Virus record (IMG/VR): IMGVR_UViG_3300042691_008567
Span: 1 to 30,365 of that record
Reading direction: 5' to 3' (one strand)
DNA length: 30,365 bases
Source: a virus
Below are positions 4,293 through 30,365 of the stretch, in pieces (position 1 is the stretch's first letter; each line of letters begins with the position of its first letter). The notes beneath the pieces are model-generated. The model worked only from the letters and a program-made list of their open reading frames with translations. It had not been told where the DNA came from and searched no databases. A program made the translations under genes and the position numbers.

Positions 4293-4473
4293 TTACTATT
4301 ACCTCGGGCCATTCATATTTTTCGTTTGTTGGTTTATTCTTAAAAATAAACTCTAGCTCAGTTGCTCTATCGATCAATCGTTGATCTCCACCCATTTCAT
4401 TTGCAGTTTGTACATACATTTGTAATGCTAATGCGATGATGCCATTGTCCGAGTCATACACTAATTCTGTCAT
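4285..4473 (-). CDS. Small protein of unknown function within the radical SAM cassette
   Basis: This 62-residue protein is acidic and probably helical (central stretch ALALQMYVQTANEMGG, then RATELEFIF), without cysteine, signal peptide or membrane segment. I do not recognise a family. It is likely genuine: its ATG at 4473 follows the upstream stop by one base, AGAGGA lies five bases ahead of it, and its stop overlaps the next gene's start. Without it there would be an unusual 180-base gap in an otherwise gapless operon. Its place between two twitch radical SAM genes makes it a candidate partner, carrier or substrate of those enzymes, but nothing in the sequence proves this. Confidence 0.72.
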   Translation of the reverse strand: MTELVYDSDNGIIALALQMYVQTANEMGGDQRLIDRATELEFIFKNKPTNEKYEWPEVIVND

Positions 4474-4474
4474 C

Positions 4475-6963: not shown

Positions 6964-8327
6964 AATCTATAAAATTCCATCATTTCCGGGAACACTGAAA
7001 GCATGTCAGTTTCTCGTCTATCGTCTAGTTCATTGAACCAATTATAAAAGTCTCTGCGACCTTCAATTAGCTTTTGTTCAGTATACACTGTTTCTGCCAT
7101 ATAGTCAACCACTCGTTTGAACTTTTCGTATTCAATTGTAGTGAATGCGTCAGGGCGAGCATCATCAAGATTATCTTCCATAAACTTCAATGCCTCGTAC
7201 ATATATGGCATAAACTGTTCTTTAGGAAGAATGTTCATATCGTATTGAATAGGGTCACGTAGATATGGAGTGTCAAAGCGAACTATATGTTCTTTACGGT
7301 CTTCATACCATCCATATTGCTTACGCCACTCTAAGAACTTTTCTAATAAGCTCTTAAACGTAGTAACGCTAAAGATATTGAATGTAATCATGAACGTGAT
7401 AGGTGCGCCACTAAGCGTTAAGTAAGTGTGAAAGTTCTTTTCCCATAGCTCTAATTCAAGGCCAGTACGAATATACTCAGCACGTTCACCCCATGTATCC
7501 ATGCTAGTGAACAATTTAAATGTTCTAATCTTCTTTTCATCATATAGTTTGCGAACCTTAGTAGCTAATCTTTCAATAAGAATATTCTTAGTGCCAAGAT
7601 TGCTGTTGATATTAAGTTCTAGCCAAGGCATGGGATCTTCATCGATCTTATCTAATAGCGTCCATGTACTCTTGTGCAATGTAGGTTCACCACCCGTAAC
7701 ACGCATGATGTTTAATGTCTTGCGTAGTTCAGGCCACCACTCCCAAAATGCATCAACGTAGGGGTTTTCTTCTTCACGTTGATATAACTTCATCCAATCA
7801 ACGTCACATCGATGGTTCTTTACATTAGTAACAGGCCCAAAGTTTTCTATTTCTTTGTAGAATTTTGTACTATATTTCGGATGGCAATAGCCGCATTTAA
7901 AATTACACTCGTTACCAAAATTGATTTCCAAATATTCTGGGTTGATATTTTGATCCCACGCACCCTTTGCAGTTTGTTCAAAACGTTCCTCCGTAAAAAT
8001 ACTCGCATTGCGAATATGTCTATCGCTAATGTAGTCTTTACCCATTGCTTCAATGTTCCAGCAATACTGACAGCCCTTGGGCTTTTCGCCTTCAAGCATC
8101 TGTTTGCGTTCCATTTTCTTTTCCCAAGTATTATGCAATGCACTTGGGTTTTCTTTTATTTCGTGCAATGGAATCTTGTGCGGGGCGGGGTGATAACAAC
8201 TATGTGTCTCACCTGTTTGTAAATACATTGTAACGTGATGCCACTTAGCCAAACAGAATGTAGGCGTAGCATTTACGTCAATGAAGTCACGAATTCTTTT
8301 AATTCTATCTGATTCTGATTCTGACAA
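6930..8327 (-). CDS. Divergent radical SAM protein with N-terminal cysteine region
   Basis: This 465-residue protein is the longest and most divergent of the five. The N-terminal region is FCLAKWHHVTMYLQTG (Cys25), SCYHP with a single Cys44 where the paralogues have CC, and CQYC (Cys86/89). The core is YLEINFGNE followed by CNFKCGYC (Cys141, 145, 148), and later MRVTGGEPTLH. The start is TTG at 8327, directly after the upstream TAA: GAGGG lies seven bases ahead, and the first in-frame ATG (residue 34) would remove the conserved FC. It is the first radical SAM gene transcribed in the operon. Its core resembles B12-independent radical SAM enzymes generally; substrate unknown. Confidence 0.87.
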   Translation of the reverse strand: MSESESDRIKRIRDFIDVNATPTFCLAKWHHVTMYLQTGETHSCYHPAPHKIPLHEIKENPSALHNTWEKKMERKQMLEGEKPKGCQYCWNIEAMGKDYISDRHIRNASIFTEERFEQTAKGAWDQNINPEYLEINFGNECNFKCGYCHPKYSTKFYKEIENFGPVTNVKNHRCDVDWMKLYQREEENPYVDAFWEWWPELRKTLNIMRVTGGEPTLHKSTWTLLDKIDEDPMPWLELNINSNLGTKNILIERLATKVRKLYDEKKIRTFKLFTSMDTWGERAEYIRTGLELELWEKNFHTYLTLSGAPITFMITFNIFSVTTFKSLLEKFLEWRKQYGWYEDRKEHIVRFDTPYLRDPIQYDMNILPKEQFMPYMYEALKFMEDNLDDARPDAFTTIEYEKFKRVVDYMAETVYTEQKLIEGRRDFYNWFNELDDRRETDMLSVFPEMMEFYRLCQEVNLTNPL

Positions 8328-12477: not shown

Positions 12478-13701
12478 TTACTTAATCGTGACTATGGCTT
12501 CTACAAAGCCCTCACCTTCTGTTTTCTTATCTTCTAAGGCTCTGCCAATAGTGTTGAATGCGGTTGCTTCGCCAGCTTGAGCAGCACGAGCAATACCATT
12601 GCCTGCACTTACAAGGCGCTGACCTTTACTAACTTCACCGATAACCTTAACTGCTACACGACCTGACATAGCAACAGGTGGGTGAGTTTGATCATCTCCC
12701 GCTCCCGCATTCATTAAGTAAGCAGCAGTATTTGAGATTACCCCAAATACATCTTCTGAAAGTTCGTATTGGACAGCAGTAATTTCATGCTTTCCGCCCA
12801 ATTGAACAACCGTACCTGGATCATATACAGTATCCGAAGCAAATCTTTCTGCAAGGTCAGCGTAAGTAGCTTGAAGTCTAGAACCTGCACTTAATGTCCA
12901 GTTACCTGTCATCGTACCTGCAGTGGTATTTGCGCCTGTCGTTATAACTGTTGCTTGTGTTGTGCTAGTTAAGATTGCACCACCGTATGATGGGAGATAA
13001 GCAGCAACGTTACTGTTACTGTATGTACCAGCAAAGCTGATTGGTTGACCGTTTGAATAATAATAGAAGTCAGCGACTAAACCTCTACTAGATGTATTAG
13101 CAATTACTAGATTACCACCGGTGACATAGAGGCTTGTCCCTGCGAAACCGCCAGCAGTACCTGATCCGTTTGCTGTCCAAACGCCAGTAAGATTTCCGTT
13201 GGTTGAACTACTACCTGTTGTAATTATTGTGGTGTTTAGTGTACCAATGTTAGCTGTTGTGATATTAGCATCTGCAATGTTAGCAGTGGCTGAAACTGTC
13301 AAATACGAACTCACCACTGCGTTAGAGGTGATTTGATTTGTTGTAGAAATATTATTTGATTGTAGATTTCCTGAAACGGTTACTGCGCCGAATGTAGTCG
13401 CACCGCCACTAGAGGTGGATGTCAATGACAACCATGCTAATGCGTTAGCTTCACCGTCAGATGGGCAAACATATAGTGTGGAGTCATTTGTGTTATACCA
13501 AAGCTGACCTCTTAATGGGTACGAAGGAGGGGTAACATCTGCGAAATTTTCAAGTAGATGTACAAGATCAGTGTCTAATGTTTGTCCATACCCAGCGTAA
13601 TTTCTACCAGGTAGGCCAAGTGAAGTACTCGTAGTATTGATTGTACCATCGGCGATGGTCGTCAATACCGTACCGTCACTTTTTACAATTGTATAAGCCA
13701 T
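12478..13701 (-). CDS. Tail fibre-like protein with peptidase-G2-like C-terminal domain
   Basis: This 407-residue protein starts SDGTVLTTIADGTINTTSTS, then LPGRNYAGYGQ, TDLVHLLENFA and GQLWYNTNDSTLYVCPSDG: an N-terminal module shared with the 1,115-residue fibre upstream and probably the virion attachment part. The middle is Ser/Thr/Asn-rich, with YYSNGQPISFAGTYSNSNV also found in the larger fibre. Residues 273-407 begin TYADLAERFASDTVYDPGTV, then DVFGVISNTAAYLMNAG, VAMSGRVAVKVIGEVSKGQR, which resembles the peptidase G2 / intramolecular chaperone domain that trims some phage appendage proteins after trimerisation. A GATAAATA element and AACGGAG lie upstream. If the domain is active, the mature fibre would lose its C-terminus; this is inference. 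Confidence 0.72.
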   Translation of the reverse strand: MAYTIVKSDGTVLTTIADGTINTTSTSLGLPGRNYAGYGQTLDTDLVHLLENFADVTPPSYPLRGQLWYNTNDSTLYVCPSDGEANALAWLSLTSTSSGGATTFGAVTVSGNLQSNNISTTNQITSNAVVSSYLTVSATANIADANITTANIGTLNTTIITTGSSSTNGNLTGVWTANGSGTAGGFAGTSLYVTGGNLVIANTSSRGLVADFYYYSNGQPISFAGTYSNSNVAAYLPSYGGAILTSTTQATVITTGANTTAGTMTGNWTLSAGSRLQATYADLAERFASDTVYDPGTVVQLGGKHEITAVQYELSEDVFGVISNTAAYLMNAGAGDDQTHPPVAMSGRVAVKVIGEVSKGQRLVSAGNGIARAAQAGEATAFNTIGRALEDKKTEGEGFVEAIVTIK

Positions 13702-14092: not shown

Positions 14093-17000
14093 TTAATCTT
14101 TCTGTGCAACAATAGCGTCTACGTATTTAACTGCGAGATTGATGCTGGATCCCGAAAATGAGTGATTATGTCCCGGTGATGTGAAGGAGTGACTATGGGC
14201 AGTCCCAGTGAAGTCATGCGTGTGAGTACTTCCCGAACCAGTATACGAAGACAGTAATGAGTCAGGTGGACTGTAAGTAGCCTGTAAGTTGTATTCAGTA
14301 TCGCCACCGATATCGGTTTCTCTTGCGAGATAAAAGCTAGAACTAAATGGCGCTGCGGTACCACTAGTAACCTTAATATTTCTAGCAACTAAGTGAGCGT
14401 GAACTGGTATTTGACTTTCAGTAAGTGCAGTATCACCTACTATACCAGTAGCCGTAGTTTGACCAATTGTAGCTGATACCGCAGTAGAACCTATTGATCC
14501 AGATACTGACTGAGAGGTAAATGCTGCGGTAAAATCGACCGATCCGCCACTGCCTGCCGAGCCAGACACAATTCTTAGTGCAGCATTATCATTAGATGTT
14601 ATTTTAGTCCATCCTGTTGGTGCACTTGTTTGTACGAACAACATTCTAGTTCCTGAGGGGAGGAAAGAAACTGATGCAGCAGAGCCCGCATTAGTTGCGT
14701 ATGCAGCATTCGCTACAGTACCAGTGACATTAGCGCCCGGCAAATTAGTTAATCCTGCGCCACTGCCGGAGTGCGATGCAGTTACGGTACTTGCGTTGAT
14801 GCCACCACTAACAGAAAGTGAACTCAGTGTGCCGACACTAGTAATATTGGGTTGCGCTGCTGTTGTTACCGTACCTGCCGTTGTTGCTGAGCCTGCTGTA
14901 GTGGCAAATGCTGCATTTGCTACAGTACCACTGACGTTTGAACCATTGATATTAGTTAATCCTGCGCCGCTACCAAAATGAGCAGCGATTACGTTGCCGG
15001 AGTTGATATTACCAGTTACAATCAACGTACTTAACGTACCAACACTAGTAATATTAGGCTGTGCTGCTGTGGTTACGGTGCCTGCGGTTGTTGCAGAACC
15101 GGCAGTAGTCGCACTGCCCGCAGTAGTCGCACTGCCTGCGGTTGTTGCAGAACCGGCAGTAGTCGCACTGCCTGCACTAACTGCATAAGTCGCATTTGCT
15201 ACTGTACCGGTAACATTTGATCCATTGAGGCTGGTGAGTCCAGCGCCACTTCCAAAATGATTACCGGTTACGTTTGCCGCAGTTACATTGCCTGAAACTG
15301 TCAATAACGTAAGTGTTCCAACACTTGTGATATTTGGTTGGGCGCCAGTGGTTACTGTACCAGCAGTACCAGCTGAGGTAGCGAATGATGCAGTAGTTGC
15401 TGATGATGCGCTTCCTGCATTTGTAGAGAAATCTGCATTAGCTGCATGAGTTGCATTAGCTACAGTACCAGTAACATTAGCACCAGTAAGGCTAGTTAGA
15501 TTTGCACCAGAACCAATAAATCTAGTTGCTTGGACATTTCCATTGACTGTTAATAATCCACTGCTGCTGTTAAAGGTAAACTTTGTGTCTGTTCCAATTG
15601 AACCCTGGTTATTGAATAGCACCTGAGTATTTGAGCCGGGAATCACAATGTTTCCGGGTACAATATTACCGACAACTTCACCGATAAAGTAAGGTGCTGT
15701 TATATTTCCAGTAGATGTTAAGCCAGTGATTGTACCTAGACTTGTAATGTTTGGTTGTGCTGCTGTAGTGAGTGTACCTGACAAGAAGTTAGCACTTACT
15801 AAGTTACCACCTGCTACATTACCCGAAGTAATATTAGCTGTAACAGAAAGAGAACTTAGTGTACCAACTGAAGTGATGTTGGGTTGTGCAGCAGTTGTTA
15901 CTGTACCGGCAGTGGTCGCAGACCCAAGAATGTTGATTGTATACGAACCGCTTAATCTTGCGCCAGGCACAGTTCCGGTTGACAAGTTACTAGCATTTAA
16001 ATCAGTGAGACTTGTACCGCCACCTACAAAATTAGTTGCACCGATGTTTCCGGCATTAGCGTTTCCTGAAACAGACAGCGATGTAAGAGTACCAACACTA
16101 GTGATATTTGGCTGTGCGTTGGTCGATAGAATGCCTGCTATACGAGTGGCAGAGATATTACTGGTAGATATATTTCCTAGAACAGTCATCCCTGCACCAG
16201 TGAATAGTGCTACGTTAGCTAGACCACCTACTGCAATTGCTACATTACCACTAGGTGAAACTACCGCAACATTAGATACACCACTAGAAATTGAAGAAAT
16301 TTGAGCAGCACTTAATCCAGTAATGAATGCACCATTACCAATGATATAGTTTGCTGCTAGGTTGCCGTTTTCATCACGAATTGCTACAGAATTAGCTGCC
16401 ACCGGTATTGATGTATCGAATCCATCCAGTAAATCAGCATTAAGATTTGCTACTCTTGTAGAAGAGGCAACTGTTAAGGGTTGAGTTCCGGTTGCTATAT
16501 TTGATACAAATCTTCCAGCAGTTACTATACCATCAACACCTAAGCTAGTTAGCGTACCCACCGAAGTAATGTTTGGTTGAGCATTAGTATATACAGTTCC
16601 GGCTACAAGAGCGTTAGCTACTTGACCGACAATATTAGCAGCAGAAATATCAGAAAGTCCGGCGATCTTAGATCCCGGTGACAGTGTCCAATTACCTACA
16701 AGTGTTCCGGGATTTGCATTAGAACCGGTACTCAATATATTACCGTTAAATGCAGTTGTGCCGCTTACGTCACCTACGTTAGCATTTAATACAGCTAGGA
16801 AAGAACTTACATTAGAGTTAGTATACGTGCCGTCAAAAGATACAGCATCACCGTTTGCATAATACCAATTATCTGTTTTTAGACCTAATGCAGTAACATT
16901 TCCGTTCGAAGTCAATGTTCCATTTAATGCCCACTGACCTATTAAGTTTCCAGAAGTAGTATTTGCTCCGGCAGTAATGTTTCTTGTGATTACATTAGCT

Positions 17001-17440
17001 AACTCGGATGCTCCAGTAACATTAGCATTTGCGATATTTGCTTGAATGTTTACTGTTAGATAATTAGTGTCAACAATATTTGCAGTTAGTTTATCAGAAA
17101 GATTAATGTTTCCTGCGTCTATGTTGCCAAACTGAGCATTTGCTCCGGGATCGATGGTAAATACTTTGATCCAATCTGCCGGATCTGTTACTCCGTCTTG
17201 CGGGCAAAGATATAATTCAGCAGTTTCTTTATTGTACCAAAATTGTCCTTCTATTGCGTTTGCTGGTGGATTAGCAGCCGCAAAATTTTCTAGTAAATGC
17301 ACAATATCGGTATCTAATACTTGACCATATCCAGGATAAAGTCTACCAGGCAGTGCTAAAGGAGTGCTTGTAGTGTTAACAGTTCCGTCGGCGATAGTCG
17401 TTAAGACTGTACCATCACTCTTAAAAATTATATATGACAC
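14093..17440 (-). CDS. Long tail fibre protein with tandem repeats and collar/HxH tip
   Basis: This 1,115-residue protein has three parts. The N-terminus (SDGTVLTTIADGTVNTTSTP, LPGRLYPGYGQ, TDIVHLLENFA, GQFWYN) matches the 407-residue fibre protein and probably anchors the fibre. The shaft holds seven QPNITSVGTL-type repeats and four longer GSGAGLT / NVTGTVANA units. The last 190 residues begin GTRMLFVQTSAPTGW and resemble a phage tail-collar domain, with HAH, HTH, HSH and HNH motifs; HxH motifs hold iron ions in the T4 gp37 tip. It is therefore a likely receptor-binding fibre. The start is GTG at 17440, chosen because it aligns exactly with the paralogue's ATG and follows AACGGAG. The shaft is rich in Ser, Thr, Asn and Ala, making it a plausible glycosylation target. 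Confidence 0.85.
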   Translation of the reverse strand: MSYIIFKSDGTVLTTIADGTVNTTSTPLALPGRLYPGYGQVLDTDIVHLLENFAAANPPANAIEGQFWYNKETAELYLCPQDGVTDPADWIKVFTIDPGANAQFGNIDAGNINLSDKLTANIVDTNYLTVNIQANIANANVTGASELANVITRNITAGANTTSGNLIGQWALNGTLTSNGNVTALGLKTDNWYYANGDAVSFDGTYTNSNVSSFLAVLNANVGDVSGTTAFNGNILSTGSNANPGTLVGNWTLSPGSKIAGLSDISAANIVGQVANALVAGTVYTNAQPNITSVGTLTSLGVDGIVTAGRFVSNIATGTQPLTVASSTRVANLNADLLDGFDTSIPVAANSVAIRDENGNLAANYIIGNGAFITGLSAAQISSISSGVSNVAVVSPSGNVAIAVGGLANVALFTGAGMTVLGNISTSNISATRIAGILSTNAQPNITSVGTLTSLSVSGNANAGNIGATNFVGGGTSLTDLNASNLSTGTVPGARLSGSYTINILGSATTAGTVTTAAQPNITSVGTLSSLSVTANITSGNVAGGNLVSANFLSGTLTTAAQPNITSLGTITGLTSTGNITAPYFIGEVVGNIVPGNIVIPGSNTQVLFNNQGSIGTDTKFTFNSSSGLLTVNGNVQATRFIGSGANLTSLTGANVTGTVANATHAANADFSTNAGSASSATTASFATSAGTAGTVTTGAQPNITSVGTLTLLTVSGNVTAANVTGNHFGSGAGLTSLNGSNVTGTVANATYAVSAGSATTAGSATTAGSATTAGSATTAGSATTAGTVTTAAQPNITSVGTLSTLIVTGNINSGNVIAAHFGSGAGLTNINGSNVSGTVANAAFATTAGSATTAGTVTTAAQPNITSVGTLSSLSVSGGINASTVTASHSGSGAGLTNLPGANVTGTVANAAYATNAGSAASVSFLPSGTRMLFVQTSAPTGWTKITSNDNAALRIVSGSAGSGGSVDFTAAFTSQSVSGSIGSTAVSATIGQTTATGIVGDTALTESQIPVHAHLVARNIKVTSGTAAPFSSSFYLARETDIGGDTEYNLQATYSPPDSLLSSYTGSGSTHTHDFTGTAHSHSFTSPGHNHSFSGSSINLAVKYVDAIVAQKD
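14660..15530 (-). repeat. Four tandem fibre-shaft units of about 65-90 residues
   Basis: Within the long fibre gene, four consecutive units each begin FxGSGAxLT (or HSGSGAGLT), continue NVTGTVANA and AGSATTAG; the first three end TTAAQPNITSVGTL and a short SGNxxxxNV segment, and the last runs into the collar domain. Unit boundaries are approximate. Units differ in length mainly through the number of six-residue AGSATT repeats. Confidence 0.75.
14827..16579 (-). repeat. Seven QPNITSVGTL-type shaft repeats
   Basis: Copies end near 14855, 15061, 15340, 15759, 15887, 16115 and 16579 on the window. Six read QPNITSVGTL; the one near 15731-15759 reads QPNITSLGTI. Spacing varies from about 130 to over 460 bases, so the repeats are dispersed and not strictly periodic. 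They are typical of beta-rich fibre shafts. Confidence 0.8.
15081..15170 (-). repeat. Five tandem 18-base units encoding AGSATT-type repeats
   Basis: Units lie at 15081-15098, 15099-15116, 15117-15134, 15135-15152 and 15153-15170. The first two (36 bases) are repeated exactly as the fourth and fifth, so there is a 54-base higher-order period. The array adds whole six-residue blocks to the fibre shaft and keeps the frame. Confidence 0.85.
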
Positions 17441-17464: not shown

Positions 17465-18085
17465 TTATGCTGTAATTAGGTTGGTCAAGCTTTGAATTCT
17501 TACCGTATAATCGATTTGAATCTGTCTGTTCAATGACTTCTGCACTGGATGAAAGATTACGTGAGTCAATAAACGAGTAATAACACTACCGTTACTATCA
17601 GTTCCGTAGTTAGCTAACAATCCAAGTTCGTCAAATATGTATTCCCCATCAGTTTGCGTGCTATTGTCGAATGCCGCTTGCCCTGCTGGTTCACCGTAGT
17701 CAAGCAAACATTGAACTAGAATATCAGTATAGGTTCTACCAGTTGTATGAAACACAGTCATCTTGTTTCTAGTAGGATCAAGATTGAATACACTGGTATC
17801 ATCTACGATCTTAGCGTATGTCTGATTATACAATGCTGCATTTTGACCAGTTGTGTTTGGCGGGAGGTAAGTAATAACACCAGTTTCGTCAACACTAGCG
17901 CCGCCGTTACCAAATGCCATTTGATAGATTTCGCCATATCCGCGGCTGCTTAGTGTGTCCGCAATTGCCTCTGACATGTTTTCATAGTTGATGGCATTCT
18001 TTTTATCTACAAAAATTTCCCCATTATTAGGGTCGTAGATTTTAAGAAATCCCTCAACCTTATACGACAACGTAATCACAGACAT
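17465..18085 (-). CDS. Putative virion structural protein
   Basis: This 206-residue protein begins SVITLSYKVEGFLKIYDPNN, then GEIFVDKKNAINYENMSEAI and IYQMAFGNGGASVDETGVIT, with LARGELY soluble mixed alpha/beta character and no signal peptide. The opening module (KIYDPNNGEIFVDKKNAI) and the GNGG segment recall small structural proteins encoded near tail-fibre genes in marine T4-like phages, but I cannot assign a T4 gene number. The ATG at 18085 has GAGGGG seven bases upstream and shares its A with the stop of the hidden 50-residue gene (TAATG). It lies between the giant protein and the long fibre, so a baseplate or fibre-attachment role is likely by context. One Cys is present; no enzymatic motif is seen. 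Confidence 0.7.
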   Translation of the reverse strand: MSVITLSYKVEGFLKIYDPNNGEIFVDKKNAINYENMSEAIADTLSSRGYGEIYQMAFGNGGASVDETGVITYLPPNTTGQNAALYNQTYAKIVDDTSVFNLDPTRNKMTVFHTTGRTYTDILVQCLLDYGEPAGQAAFDNSTQTDGEYIFDELGLLANYGTDSNGSVITRLLTHVIFHPVQKSLNRQIQIDYTVRIQSLTNLITA

Positions 18086-18242: not shown

Positions 18243-18250
18243 TATTTATC
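18243..18250 (-). promoter_or_regulatory. Late-promoter-like element (GATAAATA) overlapping the giant gene's stop
   Basis: GATAAATA, in the same 13-base context as at 13723-13735, overlaps the TGA of the giant gene. It lies only five bases before the ATG at 18237, so a T4-type start point would give a leaderless or nearly leaderless message for the 50-residue gene, or serve the 206-residue gene further on. Confidence 0.5.
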
Positions 18251-21200
18251 ATTGCATTACGTCCGATTCTAGGAATAGTGCAGGTACTGTAGTACTCAAC
18301 TGTAATGGTAGATATTCAATTAAGTTTCCTTGCTCATCATATACCGGAGTATTCCATACTTGATTGTAATATATGTCACTCAATTTATTTTCTGACAACA
18401 AGCCATAGACTACAGTATAAGTAGGTATGTAGAATTGTGCAGCAGTACCGTTTGCTCCTCTCTGTATACCAGTGAGTGTATTGGTTGTTAAGTCAACACC
18501 GCTAAAGTTAATTTGCTCACCGTTGACCATAATAGTTCCACCCTCTAGCGTAGTGATGGTCAATGAATCATCTGCGTTTAGATATACGCCGTCCTTAATC
18601 TTAAGGATCGGAGATAGGTCTTCGACTACGATACTATAGTTATCACTGTCAATTACATTTCCTGTAGTGTTATTAAGTACAGTCACAGACAATATTAAAT
18701 TCTTATCTGCGGTCAATCCTATATTATAGTACCCACCTGACACAGCAGGAGTAATGACATTTTGTACTATTTGATCAGTAACACTAGTCACATCATTAAC
18801 ATATACAACGGTGCTTAAATCATAGATGGGCTGTGTTATCCAAGTTCTATTACCTGCATTTTCTCTATACACTGATCCTTCACCTGATGCATTCACGAAG
18901 TTAATATAAATTTCTTCGTTTGGCGTAGCAGTAGGAATCATACTAGTAATGATTACAACGTCTCCAGGAACAATAGTAGTTAATATACTAATTTCATTTA
19001 CTGCATTAACTCTAATTTTGTTTGTTGGGACTTGGTATCCGTTGACCCAAACCCAAACTCTATTAGTATCTTGCTGATTCCACTGAGTCACTGCGACACT
19101 AGCCGTATCAGTAGTCAAAACAAATTCGTCACCATACTGTTCAGCAGAAACACTGAATTCATTTTCATCAAATATTTCTTTAATGTAATATTCAGTACCC
19201 TGAATCAATCCACCCAACACATCATCTCCGTTAGCTGCACCGATTTTGTTAAAGTATACAGGAGTACCAATCACTAATTCACCGGTAGTACTTGTTACAT
19301 TAGTTGTAATTCTGTTAGTCGAAGATGAACTTGATGCAGCCAGTGTTGTAGTAATATAGAATGTACCAGCACGCCATACATAACCACCACTTATATAAGT
19401 AGATACGTTTGTTACAGGATAGTTAACTGCGGTTGCTCCTGCATTGTATGGTTGCTGATAGAGATCGATTGTATTAGGATTGATCACATGAACGTAGTAA
19501 GTATTATTATTCAACTGCGTTGAACCAAGTATACCATCAATTCTAACCAAGTCATTAGTAATCAACGTGTGCGGGATAGCAGTAGTTACACGAACAGCTT
19601 CTATGCCCCCTACTATAGCTATAACATTTCCAGTAGCGTCGGTCAATCCAGTAACCGGAGAACCATTTCCATATTTTAATGTAATTAAACTATTCAACGT
19701 ATCAACGGTGTCGATGTAATAAACTGTTCCATCAGTTAACAATCCACCAAACGCTGTTCCCTTAAATTGAATGGTCTGTCCTATAATAAAGTTGCTAATA
19801 TTGTCTACTTCAACTGTATCTGTTCCGCTGTTAGTTGCAATTGCGTTAGTGACTGCTAGAGGAGGAGTTAGACTATTAATTACAGCATTGATTGGAGCAA
19901 CAGTGATACCATTGCTTGTTAAATCCATTGATCCTGTGTCATTAGTCAATATTACCGGAGCGCCACCAAGCTGTTCTGATACAACGAAGTCATTAGTATC
20001 CCAAATTTCAGTTACATAGTATGTTCTTCCTGCAACTAGTCCGCCTAACATATCGGGATTAGCTGAGAATATGATTGCGTCATTAACGCTAAGTGCCGAA
20101 GTCGATCCAGATGATAGTGTTAGCCAACTTAAATCCTGGTTGTATGCACTATCTACTGTTGCGGCAGTACCTGTACCTACGCCTACATTGATGACGGTGA
20201 TGATATCGCCGGGTGCATATGTATTACCCACAGAGCCAGCAACATCGTTCCAATCAGTGTCACCCAATAGAACAATTTCGTAAGTACGTCCGATTTCTAA
20301 GTTAGATGCAGAATATGTGATTGATGCAACTGGTCCAGAGCCGTCATATTCACTTGGTTGTGTGTTAGCAGTTCCTGTACCTGATCCCGCTGCTGCTGCA
20401 ATAAATGCATCGCCTACAGCCCATGTATAACCAGTAGAACCAGTGACTACATCCCAATCAGTATCACCCAATGAAGTGATGATGTATGAATCTCCTACTA
20501 CAAATGACCCTGCATTTACTGATACTGGAACGAATGATTCAGGATCGTCATAATTTATTATGCTTCTAGAAGTCTGACCAACCGTCAACTCTGCAATAGG
20601 TGATCCTGGGTTAGCAGTAATACCGAACTGAGTTGTCAAATATTGTTGTTCGGTATCATTATATGTAACGATTCTAATAGGAGCACCATTAACAGGAGGA
20701 GTATTGAAAGCAATAGTATTTGTTAATGTATTAATAACATACTGTGATGACAATAAACGCAATCCGCTAACTTCAACAATTGCATTTTCTGGATTAGTTC
20801 CGATCACTGCATTGTCTAGTACAAATACGGACTGTGAACCATCGCCGACAAATTCTTCTGCTTCGGGGAACGAGTAACCATATTGTGCGGGTCCGGTTTG
20901 ACCAAATACTGAGTATACTAGATAATCTTCACCATTTACATATGCATTTGATGATAACATCATTTTCGCTTGAATTCCGTTTGGTTGAATACCGAATGCA
21001 TAGTCATTAGTAATGAACATCGAGCCGCCGGTTGCATCTACTAGTGGAAGCACAGGTCCAAGTGGCGTAGCTGATATAGTGAATTCATTACCATCAATAA
21101 CCTGCTTAACGTAGTAAGTTGTAAGCGGTAGTATACCTGAATCAAACATGCACTGACAGAAAATTATTGGCTCTCCCACTACCATACCAGCAGTAGATGT

Positions 21201-24200
21201 AGTTGTAAATGCATTAGTAGAAGCAGTAGATTTTGTTATCAAACCACTTACACCGAATACTAGCTTACTTCCATTGTGATACACAATTGGATCTGTCCAC
21301 ACTTGACCATTAGCTGCCTGAATTTGTACATACATACTACCGGTAGCAGTTGTCAAAATGAAGGTCGGGCCAGCGATACCAGTTACTACATTATAAGACG
21401 CTGATACAGTAATTGTATTTGTAGCAGGGTTAATTGTTTTGACGTAATAAGTAAAGTCTTCTTGAATATTTCCAAATGTTACACCCTGGAATGTGACTGG
21501 AGCGTTTATCACAAACGAAGCAGTATCGACTACTGTGATTCTATTAGAAGCGCCATCTGTTGCAGTAGCTTCTACTGTGATTGGTTCAGTTCCTGGTCTA
21601 ATCACGCCGCTTCCCAAGAAGCTAGGTGCGCTATAATTACAATTCAAATAGATTTCGTCAAACCCTGAATTTTCATTCAAACGTATTGGATTTACATCTG
21701 TGCTTGATTTCACAAGCTGATTGCCGTTACCTACTTCATACGCTTCAATTCGTAATTGATCTGAAGGTAAGAATGCTAGAGCATTGTTTAGAGTTACTGT
21801 TTTATCTACCCAATCTACACTATACTCACTAGATGCTAATGTAGTGGCTAGCCCTGTTGCATAGTTGATAACCTGAACAGTAATTTGAATAGGATATTCA
21901 ACTAGGCTATGGAAACTGTACACAGTTTGGTTGGCGCTAGTGGGTGTTAAGTTGATTGATTTTACATCAAATCCAGAATATCCATAGTCTACTGCTGACC
22001 AAGTAGAGCCTGGCTTAGTAGTGACAATTAGTTCTAGGTTGTCAGATATCAGTCCGGGAACTAATTCTTCTGGACCATATCCAAAGTCAAATGCGTCACC
22101 GCGCACATTATAAACAGGATTTGCTATTTCAAATAGTGATACGTTTGTCCAAGTTGCGCCGTCATCAGTGCTGGTAATAATAGTGTTGTTATCACCTACT
22201 ACCGTATATGCAGAAGTGTCACTATTAAATGTAATGCCATTTAGATTTTCTAATGTTCCTGAAACTACCTTTGTCCAATTTAAGTAATCAGTAGAAGTCT
22301 TGACAGTACCATCATCTCCCACAGCAATCCACTTACCATCCACATAAATCACATCATTAAGAGTTGATGGAATAGGATCGAATGAATCATATAGACGCAA
22401 CAGTGTTTGAGTTGGGATAACCCCTCCTGATGCAAGCTCCGCAATGCCATTGCCTGTGCCTGCGCCGGTCGCAATAAACGAGGTACCCACTGAGTTTGAG
22501 GCTGCTCCGATCGCAATGAAATTAGTTGTGCCTACAGAAGTAATAATGTATGTCTTTCCGATTTCGAACGAGCCAGCAGTAATGCTAATCAATTGCTTGG
22601 TTGAGCCGCCCAAAGTATCAGAAATTGTAATTTGATTTGCAGAATCAATAGATTTGATATAGTATATTTCGCCCGCGTCAATTGAAGCGAATGTCTTATT
22701 GAATACGATAGTATCATTTACTGACAATCCACCAGTATTTCCTACAATAAGCTGATTAGTCGAACCATTGACTGAGGTGATTGCGGTTTCTGTTACACCA
22801 AACCATACTGAGCCGTTGGTAGTATAATAAATTGCGCCTTCCTCGCCTACTGTTACTGCAACTGATCCATTAGATGCAACACCCTTAAATCCGTTTGGAC
22901 TTACTGAAGGGGTACTCGACCAATTTATTCCATTATCACCACTATAGAAAGCTATATTGGTATTAACGAGTTCAGTAACACCGGTTGAGTAGTCTGGCAT
23001 CTTGCCTGTACCAACTGCAATAAATCCATCAAATCCTTGAATGTCAACTGCGGCTACACTTAATAATTGATACTGATATGTGGGATCAAAATCTTGTACA
23101 TTGCTCCAGTTGTACGTGTCGTTACTACGTAGAATCTTGTCGCCTACTGCTACCCAATAACCATCCTTGTACGCAACTGAGTTTAGTGATAGCGAAGACT
23201 GATTCAATTCAGATGCATTGTATGGAGTAATGTCGAATGGAAGCAGCTTTTCAGGAGTATAGTATCCTTCTACCGACCACACGAGTCCGTCAGTGCTTCT
23301 GAAAATTGGAGTAGCTGAATTTGCAGAAGTCATAACATAATAGCCACCTGCGTACACGATGTCTGTTACGCCGATACCTACATTAGTTAACTTTCCGATA
23401 ACCCAGTTTTCATTGTCTACACTTCCGATTACCGCAGTGTAAGTTGGAAGATTAGCTGCCGAAAGATATTTGCTACCATCCCATGCAATTGAAACAATAT
23501 TAACTTGATTTGGATAGAATGCTTGATCTTGTAATACTACATCTACCGCAAACTGTTGATCAGGTTCGAACGCATTACCTCGATAGATTGGATTTGGATA
23601 AGCAACGCCTTCAAATAACTGTGTTAAATCAACACCTGGCATATTAATAGTTGGTTGATAATATCCTAGTACTCTATCTAAAGCATTTAGTCTTCTATCA
23701 CCAGAGGTTAACTCTTCCCACTTACCGATAACAAATTCATCGTCGTTATTAGAAATTACGCATACCCATACACGACCAAGATGCTTGACGATAGACGGGG
23801 TAAAGTAGAATGGTTCAGGCAAGAATGCAAAGCTTCCTGCTTTTGCCATTGTGAAATTAGTTGACAAGTCGCTTGACAGGGTAGCGGATGACCCACCGGG
23901 GGTTTCACTTAATTGCAAATCGTTACTTGTTATAGATATAATATAATAAGTTTGATTTGGAATTAATCCACCTTCTACGTTTCCAGTGAATACTACTGCA
24001 TCGTTTAATTCAAATCCACTTGCGTCATTAACCGTAATCAAGTTCGAAGGCGAACCTTGAACACTTACTACAGTAGTTTCTGTAAACCCTACATAACCAA
24101 AATCTATTCCTGAAACAGGAACTGTCATTAGTGGATTACTGAACACGGCAAACGTATTGGGTGTACGTACCTTTAGGTAGTACTGATTAGAATTATCAGG

Positions 24201-27200
24201 TACTGTGCCTTCACAGATTACGTCTGTAATTGCACCATTTGAATTAATATCATTAACCGTTAGTGTTACGTCATTAGCAGGAGTTGTTCCACCTACTTTA
24301 TCACCAGTAATTACAATAGTATTGTTAATTGCAAAACCAGAACTTCCATCCGATACAATAGCTCTGTATCCTCCCAAGATATAAGAAATATCAAATACAG
24401 GTCCTGATGGATTTGGATACTGATTAAGAGCAATTTCGCTAACTTCGTTAGTGAGTATTACCGGATCATCACCAGGGATAGTAGATACCTTAATGAACGG
24501 CTCGCCAGTTCCCACCATAATGCCATTTTGTGTGGTTAAGTTGATAGGAGAGCTTCCTGCAATATCAGTTATCTTGAATCGTACGCCGTCCGGGTCTATC
24601 TCTGCAACGTAATATTCTTTGCCGATGATTACGCCACCTAATGCAACGCCGGTGAATATAATAGGCATACCGACATATAACGTATCAGTTGGTCTTGCAA
24701 AATCTGCTGTTCCACAAGTCAATACGCCTTCACCACTATCACTGGTGGTGTTAAGCACAGTGACTTCAATATTAGGACGTAATATTGTGTTGCTAGGATT
24801 TTCTGGATCAGGTATTTCTTCTCCTGAAAATTCAGTTACATAATATGTTGTTGATGGAAGAATACCATCAGGCACACCGATTGGAGTATCAACACGCACT
24901 GGCATATTTACATAGAAATTGTCAGTGCCACCGCTTAAGTCAGAAATTGCAATTCGATTTAGACCGCCAGTTGTGCCGTCACCCAAAGTTGCAGTGATGG
25001 TTCTAGTGATTAGATTTCCTATATTAACATCGCTAATATTTGGGTACTGAGCAGATGTATTATACAGTGTAAACAATTGTCCATCTACCTGCCCTGGACT
25101 TACCGGAAGAGAAACATTCATGGTCATTGAACCAGTAGCAGTTGTTAATACTTCGGTTTCATTTTGATTTACTACGGTTGCAGTGCCCGTTGCATCTGTA
25201 AGTGCGAATACAGGGCCGTTAATTGCAGTAGAAATCGTCATTTGAGTCAAGCTAATAATTTGACTTACAAAGTATACTTGACTAGCTACGATATTACCAA
25301 ATGTTGTTCCTAAGAAAATGATAGGATCATTTACATTAAAACCTTCAGTAGATTCTAGAACTACAGTGTCAGAAGAAGCAATGGTTTCAGTTACAGAGAC
25401 CGTTAGTGGGTTTTCAGTTTTAGAAACAGTAAAGTGTTCCTCGTCAATGACAGTGGTGATGTAATAAGGATCATTTTCAATGATGCCACCGAAGACATTA
25501 CCAGTAAAGAATATTGGAAGATTAGGATAGAAACCAGCAGTACCACCTGTGCCTATCGCAGACACCGGTATTCTTAGTATATTAGTTACTGCTGTGGTTT
25601 CTGTTACGTCAAGAATGCCAGGATAGTTTACTGTCAATACCGCGGTATTCGTAACTTCTCCCACTAAGCATTCTAGACCCTGCAAGTTTACTGTTCCGTC
25701 GCCTAGCGATTTAGTAGGCCCACCTACTGTTTCAGAGATAGTGAATTCCAAATCAGAAACAACCGACTTGACATAATATGTTCTATTGTTTTCAAGTCCA
25801 CCGACCACAGCACCAACAAACTTGATCGGCATACCTTCATAGAAACCAATAGTAGTACCAGAAGCGTTTGGTTCAGGATTTAATGGATCGTTGTTTCCAT
25901 CTTGTGGAATCAATTTGATGGTACTATTATCAAACTCAGTTGAGGTTACATAACGAATGAATGATGACCAAGTTAATATTTGATCATTGCCGACCTCAGT
26001 AATTTCAAAGGGAACACCCTGGGCACTTGCAAGAATTGCACTAATATCTGGATTAGTATTTTGCAAGTTGATTGAAGAACTTGATACTGCTTCTGAGTTG
26101 AAGTAGCTGCCTGCAAAGAATGAACCATAGTATGCACCAGTCTTCCAGTCTTGTAGCTTGGAGTTGTAAGTAGTTCTATCAAAACGTAACGTAATGTTGT
26201 TTTCTCTGATAGGAGATGAACTAGAGACTGCGGAAGCTTTAGCTCCAGCATTTAGTGACATTCCTGATACAGATGTGTTAGCTGTGAATGGGATTCTGTC
26301 ATGATCTTTTACTGCATTTCCATAACTAGCGTACAGTGCAATTACAGTCAAAGGAGATTGTTCTAGTATACCTACATAGTACCATTGTCCATCATCTAAA
26401 CGATTAATAGTTTCACCAGTTAAAGATGCTTTAAACTTAACTAGGTCTCCGGTCTGTAGTGATGGAGCATACACGTTGATAGTATGCAATGAATTATTGA
26501 CATTACTGCTTGAGAACGGAACCTTGTATGCAGGATCAATTATGATTTCAGGCAACACAGCATAACCTTGACCTGGATCGATAACGTTAATTGACAATAC
26601 ACTGTCAATTCCCATTACTGCTTCTAATTGTGCAGGGACTTTAGGTGCAGGATACTTGGTAGTATCGATGTATGCAGTTACTTTAGGAGGTTCGTTATAA
26701 CCACGACCACCATCCAATAGAAGAACTGCCGGTAGATCAATAAAGATTTCTGCGCCCGGAATATGGTCGGTAATCAATGTTCCATTGACACCTCGTACTA
26801 GTCCTCCTAGCAAATTCAATGATCGATCAACAAATGCATATGAGATTTGTTCTTCGCCAATAGTGATTACGCCGTTAATTGGGAAACCACTTGCATTATC
26901 TACGATAATATAGTTAGAGCTTAGGCTGGCGTATGAGACTAGCGTAGTCATCGGATAGTTGGTTTGACCTACTAACGAAACTCCATAGTTTGAGAACCAC
27001 TGATTATATAAATCAGATTGCCAGATATCGCTCAATGGCGAATACTCGTACTCATTAGATGGAACACCATACACCAACTGCGGAGAGATAAACTTTTCGT
27101 ATGTTGGACTGAACGCAGATGGTAAGTCGAAGTCAGTAATATCACCCTCGAATATTTCAGTGCGTGTATATTTAAATAAGAAGTCCTTAATCACTACGTG

Positions 27201-30200
27201 GAAAGGCTTGACTTCATTCAAATATCCTTCCAAGAATGCTTGGTTATCAGTCTTTAGGTTTTGTATTGGTTCAAGTTCACGAATGGTATGTGATACGTCG
27301 ATCAACGAAGTTTTATTCAACCAAGGCAAGAAATTCTGAGATTCAGTAGTTTCGCTTTGGATAAACTCAAACAAGATGATCAAACTCTTATTTCTGAATT
27401 CTACTAATTCATCAATATAAATTTGCTCGTTCAATGCACGAATAATGTAGCGTGTTTCTTGACTTGGGTAAGTGTCGAAGGTCGATGTATCGAAGAAATC
27501 TCCGCCGAAGCCAAGCTTAGCTGCGCTGTAATCCCAAAGAGTGGTATTGAAACGGATAGTTCCGTTTTCAAGACCAATGCGAGTCCAAACGTCGAACAAT
27601 GCATCGTCTAAGCGATATACTTCAAACTTACCTGCACCATTTTGTTCAACCGTAGCAAGTGTTCCCACTGGTACATTAAGTGCAGAAAGATCAGCGTATA
27701 CTGGTACTTGAACGGTTGACTTTGTGTTGTCATCATAGCCCGGTGCCCACCAGTTTACATACTCCCAATAATCAGCAGTGTTATAGAATTCACCTGATGC
27801 AAACAGGAATGTAGCGTCTGGTCTAGTTTCAGATATAGGATACTGTGATAACACTTCGTTAGCATAAATTAAGTAGTTTTTAATTGCTAAGAATCTGTTA
27901 TAGAAGAAACTCTGTCTTGGACGTGCGAGAATTCCGCTCTGTACTGCCTTAGGCAAGAATGGATTAGGAACAACTTGACCGTCTTCGTCACAACCAGAGA
28001 ATGAATCGAGCATTCTGTCGTATAGACCATATGGTTCTGTAGTCTGATTCAAATTGGTTGTAACGTTAGTGTTTGTACCATGTTTAATAACATTGGTCGG
28101 AATACCGGGCAAGAAGTCATCGGGATAGTCTTCACGAATCAAGGTATATTCGTTGTGTCCTACATCGTCGGTTGTTCCGTTCGCATATCCGATATGAAAT
28201 ACAGTATCGTTTGCATTGACGTATGGCGCACAGTTATATAACGCAAAGGCATTAGGTAAAATAGCTGATACGTATGCAATACCACTAGCTCTTGGATTAG
28301 AGATATAAGAAGCAACGATAGTATCCGAAAGAGTCTTTCCTAATTTCTTAGTTATAATGTTGCTGTTTCTTACCCAGAAGTAGTAAACAGGGACAACTAC
28401 GCCTGATGCATTCAATGCACTGCTTACAGAGAACAAGTTAACGTCTAGAGGAATACCGTCACCTTCATATGATGCAGGTGGTACGTTACTTGCTACCCAA
28501 GTATATACTGCAACATCCGAACCGGGGAATAATGTACCCCAATACTTGGCATTGTATACTGGATCGTTCTGGTGATAGTTCATGTATCTTACGTTAGCAG
28601 TGTTGAACCAAATCTCACCAACGTGCTTGGCTCCCCATACTTGACCAGTAACCTGAGCGAGGTCGCTATTGTATTTTGCTGGATCAACACTAGCTACGTA
28701 ATCGATGTTTGATCTTACTGCACCTAGTAGTTTACCATTTAATGGATCCATATAATCTAGATTTACTAGAGTATCGTTAGTTTCTGCACTAAACAATTGT
28801 GTATTCTGAATCTGTTCAACGTTTACCATAGGGGCGCTTTGTCTGAAGACTGCCCAGTCTTGTACCTTTGATGAGTTATCGTATGTAACTACCTGGCCAC
28901 CGAGAAGAACGGGCTGATAGTTAGGTGAACCCACTACTACACGGTTTTCGTTGAAGTCTAATGAGTAGCCATATTCAGGACCATATCCATAGTCAAGGCT
29001 GGAACTGTTAACGGTCTGTGCAAAAATGTACGCACCTGGATTTAACAAACTCTCATTATATTGACCCAAGAAGTCAAACATGTATACTGCACCGGCATTA
29101 GGATAACGATCCACGAATCGAGTTGCATTGTTGTCAAACACAGTATCATTATCAAGTTGCTCATCGTCTGTGAAATCGAAGGTAGTCCCTTCGAATCTAG
29201 TGCCAGCAGGCGCAGAAATAATTACAGATCCTGCGTCATTAATCTTGATAGTTGAACCAAACTGAGTTGGACCTTCTGCATGAGGGCATGTGATTATCTG
29301 AGTCTTAGTGAATAGGGTAAAGCCTAATTCATTTAAGGTGCTTCCATCAAATGCACTAATAATAAGCTTTTCATTTGGCAAGGTTAAATTATTGTTTATT
29401 GTTTGAATAACAAGTTTGCCGTTTAGTGCGCTTGCTTGGATGTTCGTAATATTATTAGAGTTGATAGTGGCTGCTGTTGCTTCGGCATCACCAGGACTAA
29501 TTGGTACTAAGAATCCATTAATTAATAGATTTCTATTACCAAGTACTTGGCATTCACTAGTGCCGACTACTACACCGTGTCTTGCTCCACCGTTAGTAAA
29601 TCTATATACTGAACCTTCTTTTCCGTCAGTGTTGATTTCATAAGGAGAACCTACAAGAATGTCTGAGCCTTGTTTATTAACGTCAATAGCGTAACCAAAC
29701 TGAATATTTGTTCTGTCATTATAATCGTTGTCAAGCGTTTGGACTAAGTTAAACTGATTATCGCTAATATTTACAATGTCACCTGCTTGAAGTGTTCCAG
29801 TATAATAGAACATGTTTCCTACGCTAGCGTAGTTGACATCATCTACTAATGCACCATTAACAGTAACATAAAGAGGAGTTGTTTGAGCGGTCGCCGTAAT
29901 ATTAGAAATTGTAGCTGCGGTATCAACTACTTCTACTGCGGTAGTTGAGCGTGAAAGCTTCAAGGTAATATCGTTACCCGTGATACTTTCAATATAGTAA
30001 ACTAGATTAGTAGATACGCCGGTTCCCCCTAATCCAATTCCAGTAAAGATAATCGGATCGTTAACTGCCATACCCGCGGTATCATTCAACTCTACAGTGT
30101 TAGGTGCAGTAGTTGAAACAACCGTAGTTTCTACCTGATCAGGTGTCCACGCTAAGCGGAATGTCTGTGGTTGATATGGTATTGAATTATATTGTGCTTC

Positions 30201-30365
30201 TACATTTTGTGAGGTACGTTGTAACACATAGGCTGCGCCGTTGTCTAATATCAATGAGCTAAAGTTTTTGTTGGGTGCACCTACGACTAACACGTTACCG
30301 GTCTGATTCGTTGCCAATGATTTAGCAAACCCGTCAGATGTTTCTAGTCCAAAATCTACACCGTC
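18249..30365 (-). CDS. Giant multi-repeat virion structural protein (5' end outside window)
   Basis: At least 4,038 residues are visible and the frame is open to the window edge, so the true start lies beyond base 30365; the TTG at 30317 is internal. About 28900-30365 encodes four FG-GAP-like blades (GNVLVVGAP...GAAYVL; FGYAIDVNKQGSDILVGSP; AGSVIISAPAGTRF; YGYSLDFNENRVVVGSP). About 27000-28830 is non-repetitive and holds NEVKPFHVVIKDFLFKYT. From about 26900 to 19000 there are beta-rich modules (PIxFxG..GG......YYV.xI....FTIS), an Asp-box propeller region at about 22130-23480, and three GxxYxIxxxGxT...GTGTA units. A GEQI...VD...RGxNGT module occurs near 26800 and again near the C-terminus. There is no signal peptide in view and no enzyme motif. 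Comparable giant proteins are known from marine T4-like phages as virion components; tail-fibre or baseplate placement is inferred. Confidence 0.82.
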   Translation of the reverse strand, partial: DGVDFGLETSDGFAKSLATNQTGNVLVVGAPNKNFSSLILDNGAAYVLQRTSQNVEAQYNSIPYQPQTFRLAWTPDQVETTVVSTTAPNTVELNDTAGMAVNDPIIFTGIGLGGTGVSTNLVYYIESITGNDITLKLSRSTTAVEVVDTAATISNITATAQTTPLYVTVNGALVDDVNYASVGNMFYYTGTLQAGDIVNISDNQFNLVQTLDNDYNDRTNIQFGYAIDVNKQGSDILVGSPYEINTDGKEGSVYRFTNGGARHGVVVGTSECQVLGNRNLLINGFLVPISPGDAEATAATINSNNITNIQASALNGKLVIQTINNNLTLPNEKLIISAFDGSTLNELGFTLFTKTQIITCPHAEGPTQFGSTIKINDAGSVIISAPAGTRFEGTTFDFTDDEQLDNDTVFDNNATRFVDRYPNAGAVYMFDFLGQYNESLLNPGAYIFAQTVNSSSLDYGYGPEYGYSLDFNENRVVVGSPNYQPVLLGGQVVTYDNSSKVQDWAVFRQSAPMVNVEQIQNTQLFSAETNDTLVNLDYMDPLNGKLLGAVRSNIDYVASVDPAKYNSDLAQVTGQVWGAKHVGEIWFNTANVRYMNYHQNDPVYNAKYWGTLFPGSDVAVYTWVASNVPPASYEGDGIPLDVNLFSVSSALNASGVVVPVYYFWVRNSNIITKKLGKTLSDTIVASYISNPRASGIAYVSAILPNAFALYNCAPYVNANDTVFHIGYANGTTDDVGHNEYTLIREDYPDDFLPGIPTNVIKHGTNTNVTTNLNQTTEPYGLYDRMLDSFSGCDEDGQVVPNPFLPKAVQSGILARPRQSFFYNRFLAIKNYLIYANEVLSQYPISETRPDATFLFASGEFYNTADYWEYVNWWAPGYDDNTKSTVQVPVYADLSALNVPVGTLATVEQNGAGKFEVYRLDDALFDVWTRIGLENGTIRFNTTLWDYSAAKLGFGGDFFDTSTFDTYPSQETRYIIRALNEQIYIDELVEFRNKSLIILFEFIQSETTESQNFLPWLNKTSLIDVSHTIRELEPIQNLKTDNQAFLEGYLNEVKPFHVVIKDFLFKYTRTEIFEGDITDFDLPSAFSPTYEKFISPQLVYGVPSNEYEYSPLSDIWQSDLYNQWFSNYGVSLVGQTNYPMTTLVSYASLSSNYIIVDNASGFPINGVITIGEEQISYAFVDRSLNLLGGLVRGVNGTLITDHIPGAEIFIDLPAVLLLDGGRGYNEPPKVTAYIDTTKYPAPKVPAQLEAVMGIDSVLSINVIDPGQGYAVLPEIIIDPAYKVPFSSSNVNNSLHTINVYAPSLQTGDLVKFKASLTGETINRLDDGQWYYVGILEQSPLTVIALYASYGNAVKDHDRIPFTANTSVSGMSLNAGAKASAVSSSSPIRENNITLRFDRTTYNSKLQDWKTGAYYGSFFAGSYFNSEAVSSSSINLQNTNPDISAILASAQGVPFEITEVGNDQILTWSSFIRYVTSTEFDNSTIKLIPQDGNNDPLNPEPNASGTTIGFYEGMPIKFVGAVVGGLENNRTYYVKSVVSDLEFTISETVGGPTKSLGDGTVNLQGLECLVGEVTNTAVLTVNYPGILDVTETTAVTNILRIPVSAIGTGGTAGFYPNLPIFFTGNVFGGIIENDPYYITTVIDEEHFTVSKTENPLTVSVTETIASSDTVVLESTEGFNVNDPIIFLGTTFGNIVASQVYFVSQIISLTQMTISTAINGPVFALTDATGTATVVNQNETEVLTTATGSMTMNVSLPVSPGQVDGQLFTLYNTSAQYPNISDVNIGNLITRTITATLGDGTTGGLNRIAISDLSGGTDNFYVNMPVRVDTPIGVPDGILPSTTYYVTEFSGEEIPDPENPSNTILRPNIEVTVLNTTSDSGEGVLTCGTADFARPTDTLYVGMPIIFTGVALGGVIIGKEYYVAEIDPDGVRFKITDIAGSSPINLTTQNGIMVGTGEPFIKVSTIPGDDPVILTNEVSEIALNQYPNPSGPVFDISYILGGYRAIVSDGSSGFAINNTIVITGDKVGGTTPANDVTLTVNDINSNGAITDVICEGTVPDNSNQYYLKVRTPNTFAVFSNPLMTVPVSGIDFGYVGFTETTVVSVQGSPSNLITVNDASGFELNDAVVFTGNVEGGLIPNQTYYIISITSNDLQLSETPGGSSATLSSDLSTNFTMAKAGSFAFLPEPFYFTPSIVKHLGRVWVCVISNNDDEFVIGKWEELTSGDRRLNALDRVLGYYQPTINMPGVDLTQLFEGVAYPNPIYRGNAFEPDQQFAVDVVLQDQAFYPNQVNIVSIAWDGSKYLSAANLPTYTAVIGSVDNENWVIGKLTNVGIGVTDIVYAGGYYVMTSANSATPIFRSTDGLVWSVEGYYTPEKLLPFDITPYNASELNQSSLSLNSVAYKDGYWVAVGDKILRSNDTYNWSNVQDFDPTYQYQLLSVAAVDIQGFDGFIAVGTGKMPDYSTGVTELVNTNIAFYSGDNGINWSSTPSVSPNGFKGVASNGSVAVTVGEEGAIYYTTNGSVWFGVTETAITSVNGSTNQLIVGNTGGLSVNDTIVFNKTFASIDAGEIYYIKSIDSANQITISDTLGGSTKQLISITAGSFEIGKTYIITSVGTTNFIAIGAASNSVGTSFIATGAGTGNGIAELASGGVIPTQTLLRLYDSFDPIPSTLNDVIYVDGKWIAVGDDGTVKTSTDYLNWTKVVSGTLENLNGITFNSDTSAYTVVGDNNTIITSTDDGATWTNVSLFEIANPVYNVRGDAFDFGYGPEELVPGLISDNLELIVTTKPGSTWSAVDYGYSGFDVKSINLTPTSANQTVYSFHSLVEYPIQITVQVINYATGLATTLASSEYSVDWVDKTVTLNNALAFLPSDQLRIEAYEVGNGNQLVKSSTDVNPIRLNENSGFDEIYLNCNYSAPSFLGSGVIRPGTEPITVEATATDGASNRITVVDTASFVINAPVTFQGVTFGNIQEDFTYYVKTINPATNTITVSASYNVVTGIAGPTFILTTATGSMYVQIQAANGQVWTDPIVYHNGSKLVFGVSGLITKSTASTNAFTTTSTAGMVVGEPIIFCQCMFDSGILPLTTYYVKQVIDGNEFTISATPLGPVLPLVDATGGSMFITNDYAFGIQPNGIQAKMMLSSNAYVNGEDYLVYSVFGQTGPAQYGYSFPEAEEFVGDGSQSVFVLDNAVIGTNPENAIVEVSGLRLLSSQYVINTLTNTIAFNTPPVNGAPIRIVTYNDTEQQYLTTQFGITANPGSPIAELTVGQTSRSIINYDDPESFVPVSVNAGSFVVGDSYIITSLGDTDWDVVTGSTGYTWAVGDAFIAAAAGSGTGTANTQPSEYDGSGPVASITYSASNLEIGRTYEIVLLGDTDWNDVAGSVGNTYAPGDIITVINVGVGTGTAATVDSAYNQDLSWLTLSSGSTSALSVNDAIIFSANPDMLGGLVAGRTYYVTEIWDTNDFVVSEQLGGAPVILTNDTGSMDLTSNGITVAPINAVINSLTPPLAVTNAIATNSGTDTVEVDNISNFIIGQTIQFKGTAFGGLLTDGTVYYIDTVDTLNSLITLKYGNGSPVTGLTDATGNVIAIVGGIEAVRVTTAIPHTLITNDLVRIDGILGSTQLNNNTYYVHVINPNTIDLYQQPYNAGATAVNYPVTNVSTYISGGYVWRAGTFYITTTLAASSSSSTNRITTNVTSTTGELVIGTPVYFNKIGAANGDDVLGGLIQGTEYYIKEIFDENEFSVSAEQYGDEFVLTTDTASVAVTQWNQQDTNRVWVWVNGYQVPTNKIRVNAVNEISILTTIVPGDVVIITSMIPTATPNEEIYINFVNASGEGSVYRENAGNRTWITQPIYDLSTVVYVNDVTSVTDQIVQNVITPAVSGGYYNIGLTADKNLILSVTVLNNTTGNVIDSDNYSIVVEDLSPILKIKDGVYLNADDSLTITTLEGGTIMVNGEQINFSGVDLTTNTLTGIQRGANGTAAQFYIPTYTVVYGLLSENKLSDIYYNQVWNTPVYDEQGNLIEYLPLQLSTTVPALFLESDVMQ
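20150..22570 (-). repeat. Three GxxYxIxxxGxT...GTGTA units
   Basis: Copies read IGKTYIITSVGTTNFIAIGA (about 22440-22570), VGDSYIITSLGDTDW (about 20360-20520) and IGRTYEIVLLGDTDW (about 20150-20310), each ending in a Gly/Thr-rich GTGTA or GNGIA. The last two are adjacent. This unit is familiar to me from other phage structural proteins, where its role is unknown. Confidence 0.7.
22130..23480 (-). repeat. Seven Asp-box-like motifs (propeller) in the giant protein
   Basis: Motifs of the S/T-x-D/N...W type occur in order as SVDNENW, STDGLVW, SNDTYNW, SGDNGINW, TTNGSVW, STDYLNW and STDDGATW, several next to WIAVGDDG or AVTVGEEG strands. This matches BNR/Asp-box beta-propeller blades. One PIxFxG-type module and one GTGxA unit interrupt the series between the fifth and sixth motif. 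Confidence 0.7.

Follow-up and report, generated by a model that had tools for sequence, protein, structure and literature searches.

An unusually large member of a jumbo-phage virion protein family encoded at the edge of an environmental viral contig

The sequence analyzed (the window), 30,365 bases long, is a linear fragment that makes up the whole of an IMG/VR record and so offers no room for extension. A reading frame on the reverse strand at 18249–30365 comprised 4,038 codons and a stop codon, contained no in-frame stops, and was still open at the contig edge, thereby taking up 12,117 of the 30,365 bases (39.9%). From the base composition, ∼262 stops would be expected across this frame (log10 of the probability of observing none, approximately −118), whereas stops numbered 178–427 in each of the five alternative frames of this stretch. 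An initial annotation had described a gene of >12.1 kb running off the window and spending about 40 percent of it, and both statements are borne out. The first in-frame start codon, the TTG at 30317, is residue 17 of the window portion and thus lies, as had also been noted, within an FG-GAP sequence, the FG-GAP_2 match spanning residues 9–47. The features of the locus are collected in Table 1.

Table 1. Features of the giant gene and its downstream neighbor (residues are numbered from the first codon of the window portion)
Feature	Coordinates	Strand	Evidence
Giant virion-protein gene, 3′ 12.1 kb	18249..30365	-	Open frame; alignment to complete relative L006; PHROG 10938 match, E 2.2e-55
FG-GAP_2 match, residues 9–47	30225..30341	-	Pfam E 9.7e-6, 26.1 bits versus cut-off of 23
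Single ∼79-residue repeat, residues 78–153	29907..30134	-	Iterated HMM, E 1e-15
Conserved core, residues ∼471–1171	26853..28955	-	Common to PA5oct-like, Rak2-like, Atu_ph07 and SCTP-2 phages; pLDDT 74 model; BFVD matches
First repeat array, residues 1500–2168, seven ∼79-residue copies (one marginal, E 9e-3)	23862..25868	-	Iterated HMM
BNR/Ycf48-like stretch, residues ∼2250–2800	21966..23618	-	Pfam PSII_BNR E 4e-4, below curated cut-off
Second repeat array, residues 2929–3760, six ∼79-residue copies	19086..21581	-	Iterated HMM
C-terminal segment, residues 3900–4038, motif VNGEQINFS...NTLTGIQRGANGT	18249..18668	-	Sequence
Downstream neighbor gene, 206 aa, phrog_11259	17465..18085	-	93–96% identical in L010 and L006 contigs

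A scan of viral contigs returned 49 relatives of the giant gene, and a profile scan of the same collection returned at least 597 related stretches. Both termini of the frame are present in 28 environmental loci of the window's group. The gene was intact in 27 of these, several of which are near-duplicates; there it began with ATG and encoded 5,279–6,629 residues. The remaining locus (L020) was split by a stop. In another contig, the frame stayed open for 6,726 codons. The closest complete relative, L006, encodes 6,612 residues and was 68% identical to window residues 1–4,035. Given that window residue 1 aligned with L006 residue 2,588, ∼2,590 codons are missing from the window, and the whole gene would span ∼19.9 kb. 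For the same reason, 30317 does not mark the start of the gene. The initial annotation had doubted this TTG while allowing that the gene might begin there; its doubt was justified, since the relatives start with ATG and show ∼2,590 further codons upstream. From the alignment, the full product is predicted to have ∼6,600 residues (roughly 0.7 MDa), of which the window holds the last 61%. Its description as one of the larger phage proteins is therefore apt; it is large and not the largest, as huge phages have been reported to encode predicted proteins as long as 7,694 aa, some of which were tentatively considered structural (Al-Shayeb et al. 2020, PMC7162821). Comparison with L006 gave pN/pS values of 0.16–0.34 in each 500-codon block, with synonymous sites near saturation. 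Purifying selection thus acts across the entire frame, which argues that all of it is translated and selected. Contigs with the giant gene reached 333 kb, and the gene accounted for ∼6% of the sequence of the 333-kb relative. The frame was broken in L020 near 6457 by an in-frame stop and in L046 near 10290 by what was apparently a short sequence loss.

Residues 1 to ∼500, which open with the FG-GAP_2 match, look β-propeller-like, and the BNR/Ycf48-like stretch also appears propeller-like. The iterated HMM placed one ∼79-residue repeat inside the latter, at residues 2525–2596. Two modules of the form VGxxYxIxxxGxTDW were found in the second repeat array, with one more at residue 2602, and a weak Pfam E1_FCCH match was seen in the same array at residues 3591–3663. 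A form of the C-terminal motif is kept in Cassandra. By iterated HMM, the ∼79-residue repeat was counted 15 times in the window (one copy marginal) and 15 times in each of L006, L007, L010 and L014. It was found once in L037 and L040 (5.3–5.5 thousand residues), once and marginally in CBB, and not at all in Cassandra. Therefore, the proteins of the window's group are larger mainly through added modules; the extra size is modular, consisting of ∼15 repeats and propeller-like stretches that are nearly absent from the isolates examined. Residues 1–2,300 of L006 were highly conserved, except for a variable stretch near 300–500, as were residues ∼3,050–3,750; conservation was lower elsewhere, including the repeat regions. 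No match to the repeat region was obtained from the phage collection by tblastn, and the sole match to the C-terminal half was a 73-residue stretch of the tail fibre of Caulobacter phage KSC.

The profile of PHROG 10938 (“head and packaging, virion structural protein”) matched the window product best at residues 491–847. Matches to the core in the phage collection came from PA5oct-like Pseudomonas phages, Salicola phage SCTP-2, Atu_ph07 and Rak2-like phages. Homologues in PA5oct-like, Rak2-like and Atu_ph07-like jumbo phages have 3,340–4,455 residues, and that of SCTP-2 has 3,807. The N-terminal region lies beyond the window edge and was read in complete relatives such as L006, where it carries the signature FLPEIF..TN..FL.ATLDQL...GYIG together with YQL.P; this signature is common to Cassandra, L169 and SCTP-2. 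For the stretch NEVKPYHVVIKEF, suspected of resembling the LKPAHT motif of P2 gpI/Mu gp48, Pfam gave no support, and a P2 gpI profile compared with the N terminus gave nothing. No relatives in bacterial or archaeal genomes were confirmed in one pattern scan.

An AlphaFold model of the core, built with 69 sequences, had a mean pLDDT of 74 and a mix of strands and short helices. In BFVD, this model matched giant phage proteins, among them the Atu_ph07 “structural protein”; comparison with the PDB gave no convincing fold match, and profiles of three segments searched against PDB sequences returned nothing. An earlier model from 16 sequences reached a pLDDT of only 47, and its matches were meaningless. 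Tailspikes matched the small region 411–464 of the 69-sequence model with a Z score of 5.4, a similarity too slight to rely on; gp7 was absent from these matches, which excludes nothing.

A gp25-like gene (PF04965) lay upstream in each of eight contigs from the window's group, and a gp6-like gene (phrog_10646) lay directly upstream of the giant gene in relatives from this group. The order in relatives is thus gp25-like gene, gp6-like wedge gene, giant gene, the window's own upstream DNA being beyond the contig edge. In Cassandra and CBB, the homologue also directly follows the gp6-like wedge gene. The Atu_ph07 homologue (4,449 aa) directly follows a 3.6-kb gene at the corresponding place, consistent with the same wedge-giant order. 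In AP-J-162, ORFs 56 and 57 are listed as encoding baseplate wedge proteins (131 and 1,198 aa) and ORF 58 a structural protein of 4,455 aa (PMC11242549). By its profile match, the giant product belongs to the PHROG 10938 family of jumbo-phage virion proteins, and in relatives its gene stands beside baseplate-wedge genes. The 206-aa product of the downstream neighbor is a candidate partner protein. Assignment of the window's group to the bS21-encoding freshwater phage clades (PMC9723584) was considered and rejected, no bS21 having been found in six contigs. In an open-access library, no description of the giant protein of this environmental group was found.

Members of the family have been recovered from virions. 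CBB_236 was represented by 21 peptides in virion mass spectrometry (PMC5259590), and phAPEC6 gp245 (382 kDa), which is listed next after the 131-kDa baseplate wedge protein gp244, was represented by 17 (PMC7247149); both are homologues of the giant product at ∼25–30% identity and are essentially without repeat arrays. In T4, the gene order is 6-7-8, and gp7 is present in six copies in the wedge, where it contacts gp6, gp8, gp9 and gp10 (PMC3004832). The reading that we favor, with measured rather than high confidence, is that the giant product is a virion protein of ∼6,600 residues from a contractile-tailed jumbo phage and, by inference, one present at low copy number in the baseplate wedge, at the position that gp7 takes in T4. 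Each particle would contain a few copies, probably six, with the conserved blocks (L006 residues ∼1–2,400 and 3,050–3,750) anchoring them in the wedge. The variable β-rich repeats and propeller-like stretches would reach outward and may carry fibres or contact the host surface.

A metagenomic fragment with internal repeats invites the suspicion, raised in the initial annotation, that separate genes were fused during assembly, and the broken frames of L020 and L046 might be taken in its favor. The 27 intact complete copies in other contigs have the same architecture, however, the alignment to L006 runs the whole length at 68%, and selection is purifying throughout. Because the same continuous frame recurs in many other contigs, it is not a chimeric join, and we regard the chance of an artefact as close to negligible. 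Length alone would suggest a tail tape-measure protein, whose gene is often the longest in a tailed phage (PMC8570332). The long, mainly α-helical character expected of such a protein is not seen in the giant product; its repeats and matched families are of β type (FG-GAP, BNR and E1_FCCH-like) without long helices, its core model mixes strands with short helices, and Atu_ph07 has a different gene, gp701, annotated as its tape measure (PMC6102473). A tape-measure function is therefore very improbable. A more serious competitor, although still an unlikely one, is a virion protein of the tail or capsid surface that is merely encoded among wedge genes, such as a component of the hair-like whiskers. 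Whiskers are present without explanation on both CBB and phAPEC6 (PMC5259590, PMC7247149), the PHROG label says merely “head and packaging, virion structural protein,” and repeat-rich β modules would fit a filament. Against this, the distant phages that were examined have the gene directly after a gp6-like wedge gene, and the family is spread over PA5oct-, Rak2- and Atu_ph07-like phages. The CBB peptide count, 21 versus 13 for the wedge protein, is similar and fits few copies, and the CBB authors could assign the whiskers to no gene (PMC5259590).

A sharper form of the wedge proposal, and one compatible with it, is that the giant product is a genuine homologue of T4 gp7, enlarged by insertions past profile detection. 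In relatives, the gene immediately follows the gp6-like gene, as gene 7 follows gene 6 in T4, and the size of gp7 orthologues is known to vary (242 aa in XM1 versus 1,032 in T4; PMC10457771). The T4 gp7 profile nevertheless found no support in four segments and the N terminus (hhalign probabilities <1%), and the core, the one part folded with fair confidence, is without a convincing fold match in the PDB. Such homology is a real possibility, to which we give somewhat less than even weight. Given the lack of profile support, the relation to gp7 is positional only, and membership is not claimed.

With the wedge placement as the preferred reading, the product can be set beside known systems. It resembles CBB_236 and phAPEC6 gp245 (PHROG 10938, Rak2-like) in its profile match, conserved core and position after a gp6-like wedge gene, but the CBB homologue has 3,340 aa against ∼6,600 here and is essentially free of ∼79-residue repeats (one marginal). 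With the virion structural protein of PA5oct and Cassandra (Arenbergviridae) it has the N-terminal signature, core and gene order in common, whereas the Cassandra protein has 3,857 aa, is ∼27–28% identical across the core, and has no detected ∼79-residue repeat. The proteins of Atu_ph07, which also matches in core fold, and of Sinorhizobium phage AP-J-162 occupy the corresponding place beside wedge genes but are ∼2,150 residues shorter, and the core profile matched them only in parts. T4 gp7 is likewise encoded directly after gp6 (in our case, as judged from relatives) and likewise is a large wedge protein, but it has 1,032 aa and no detectable sequence-profile similarity. The giant product thus falls within a known, little-studied family of jumbo-phage virion proteins, in which it is unusually large. 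It is among the longer known phage proteins, and it belongs to a family found in virions and without a matching solved structure. Its relatives, graded from 3.3 to 6.7 thousand residues, offer a system for asking how the baseplates of contractile tails grow and for what reason a phage would bear the cost of one giant chain in place of several small ones. Speculatively, the wedge protein of one widespread jumbo-phage lineage from the environment may have grown to ∼6,000–6,700 residues via β repeats and propellers, such that a single chain could replace several peripheral baseplate or fibre-attachment proteins (the T4 gp7–gp11 set).

Elsewhere in the window, the reverse-strand genes at 12478–13701 and 14093–17440 share an N-terminal stretch, the first ∼260 residues of the longer product matching counterparts of the shorter at 45–46%. 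The end of the shorter product has a weak Peptidase_G2-like match, and no full-length counterpart of the longer was found in the 333-kb relative contig (L063). The two look like paralogous fibre proteins. Five radical SAM genes are clustered at 2044–8327 on the reverse strand; three of these genes encode a SPASM-like iron-sulfur domain ahead of the radical SAM domain and not behind it. This cluster is conserved in L063, with four counterparts 70–82% identical and one 53% identical. Adjoining it, a gene for an NAD-dependent epimerase/dehydratase (3–725, reverse strand) runs off the other end of the contig.
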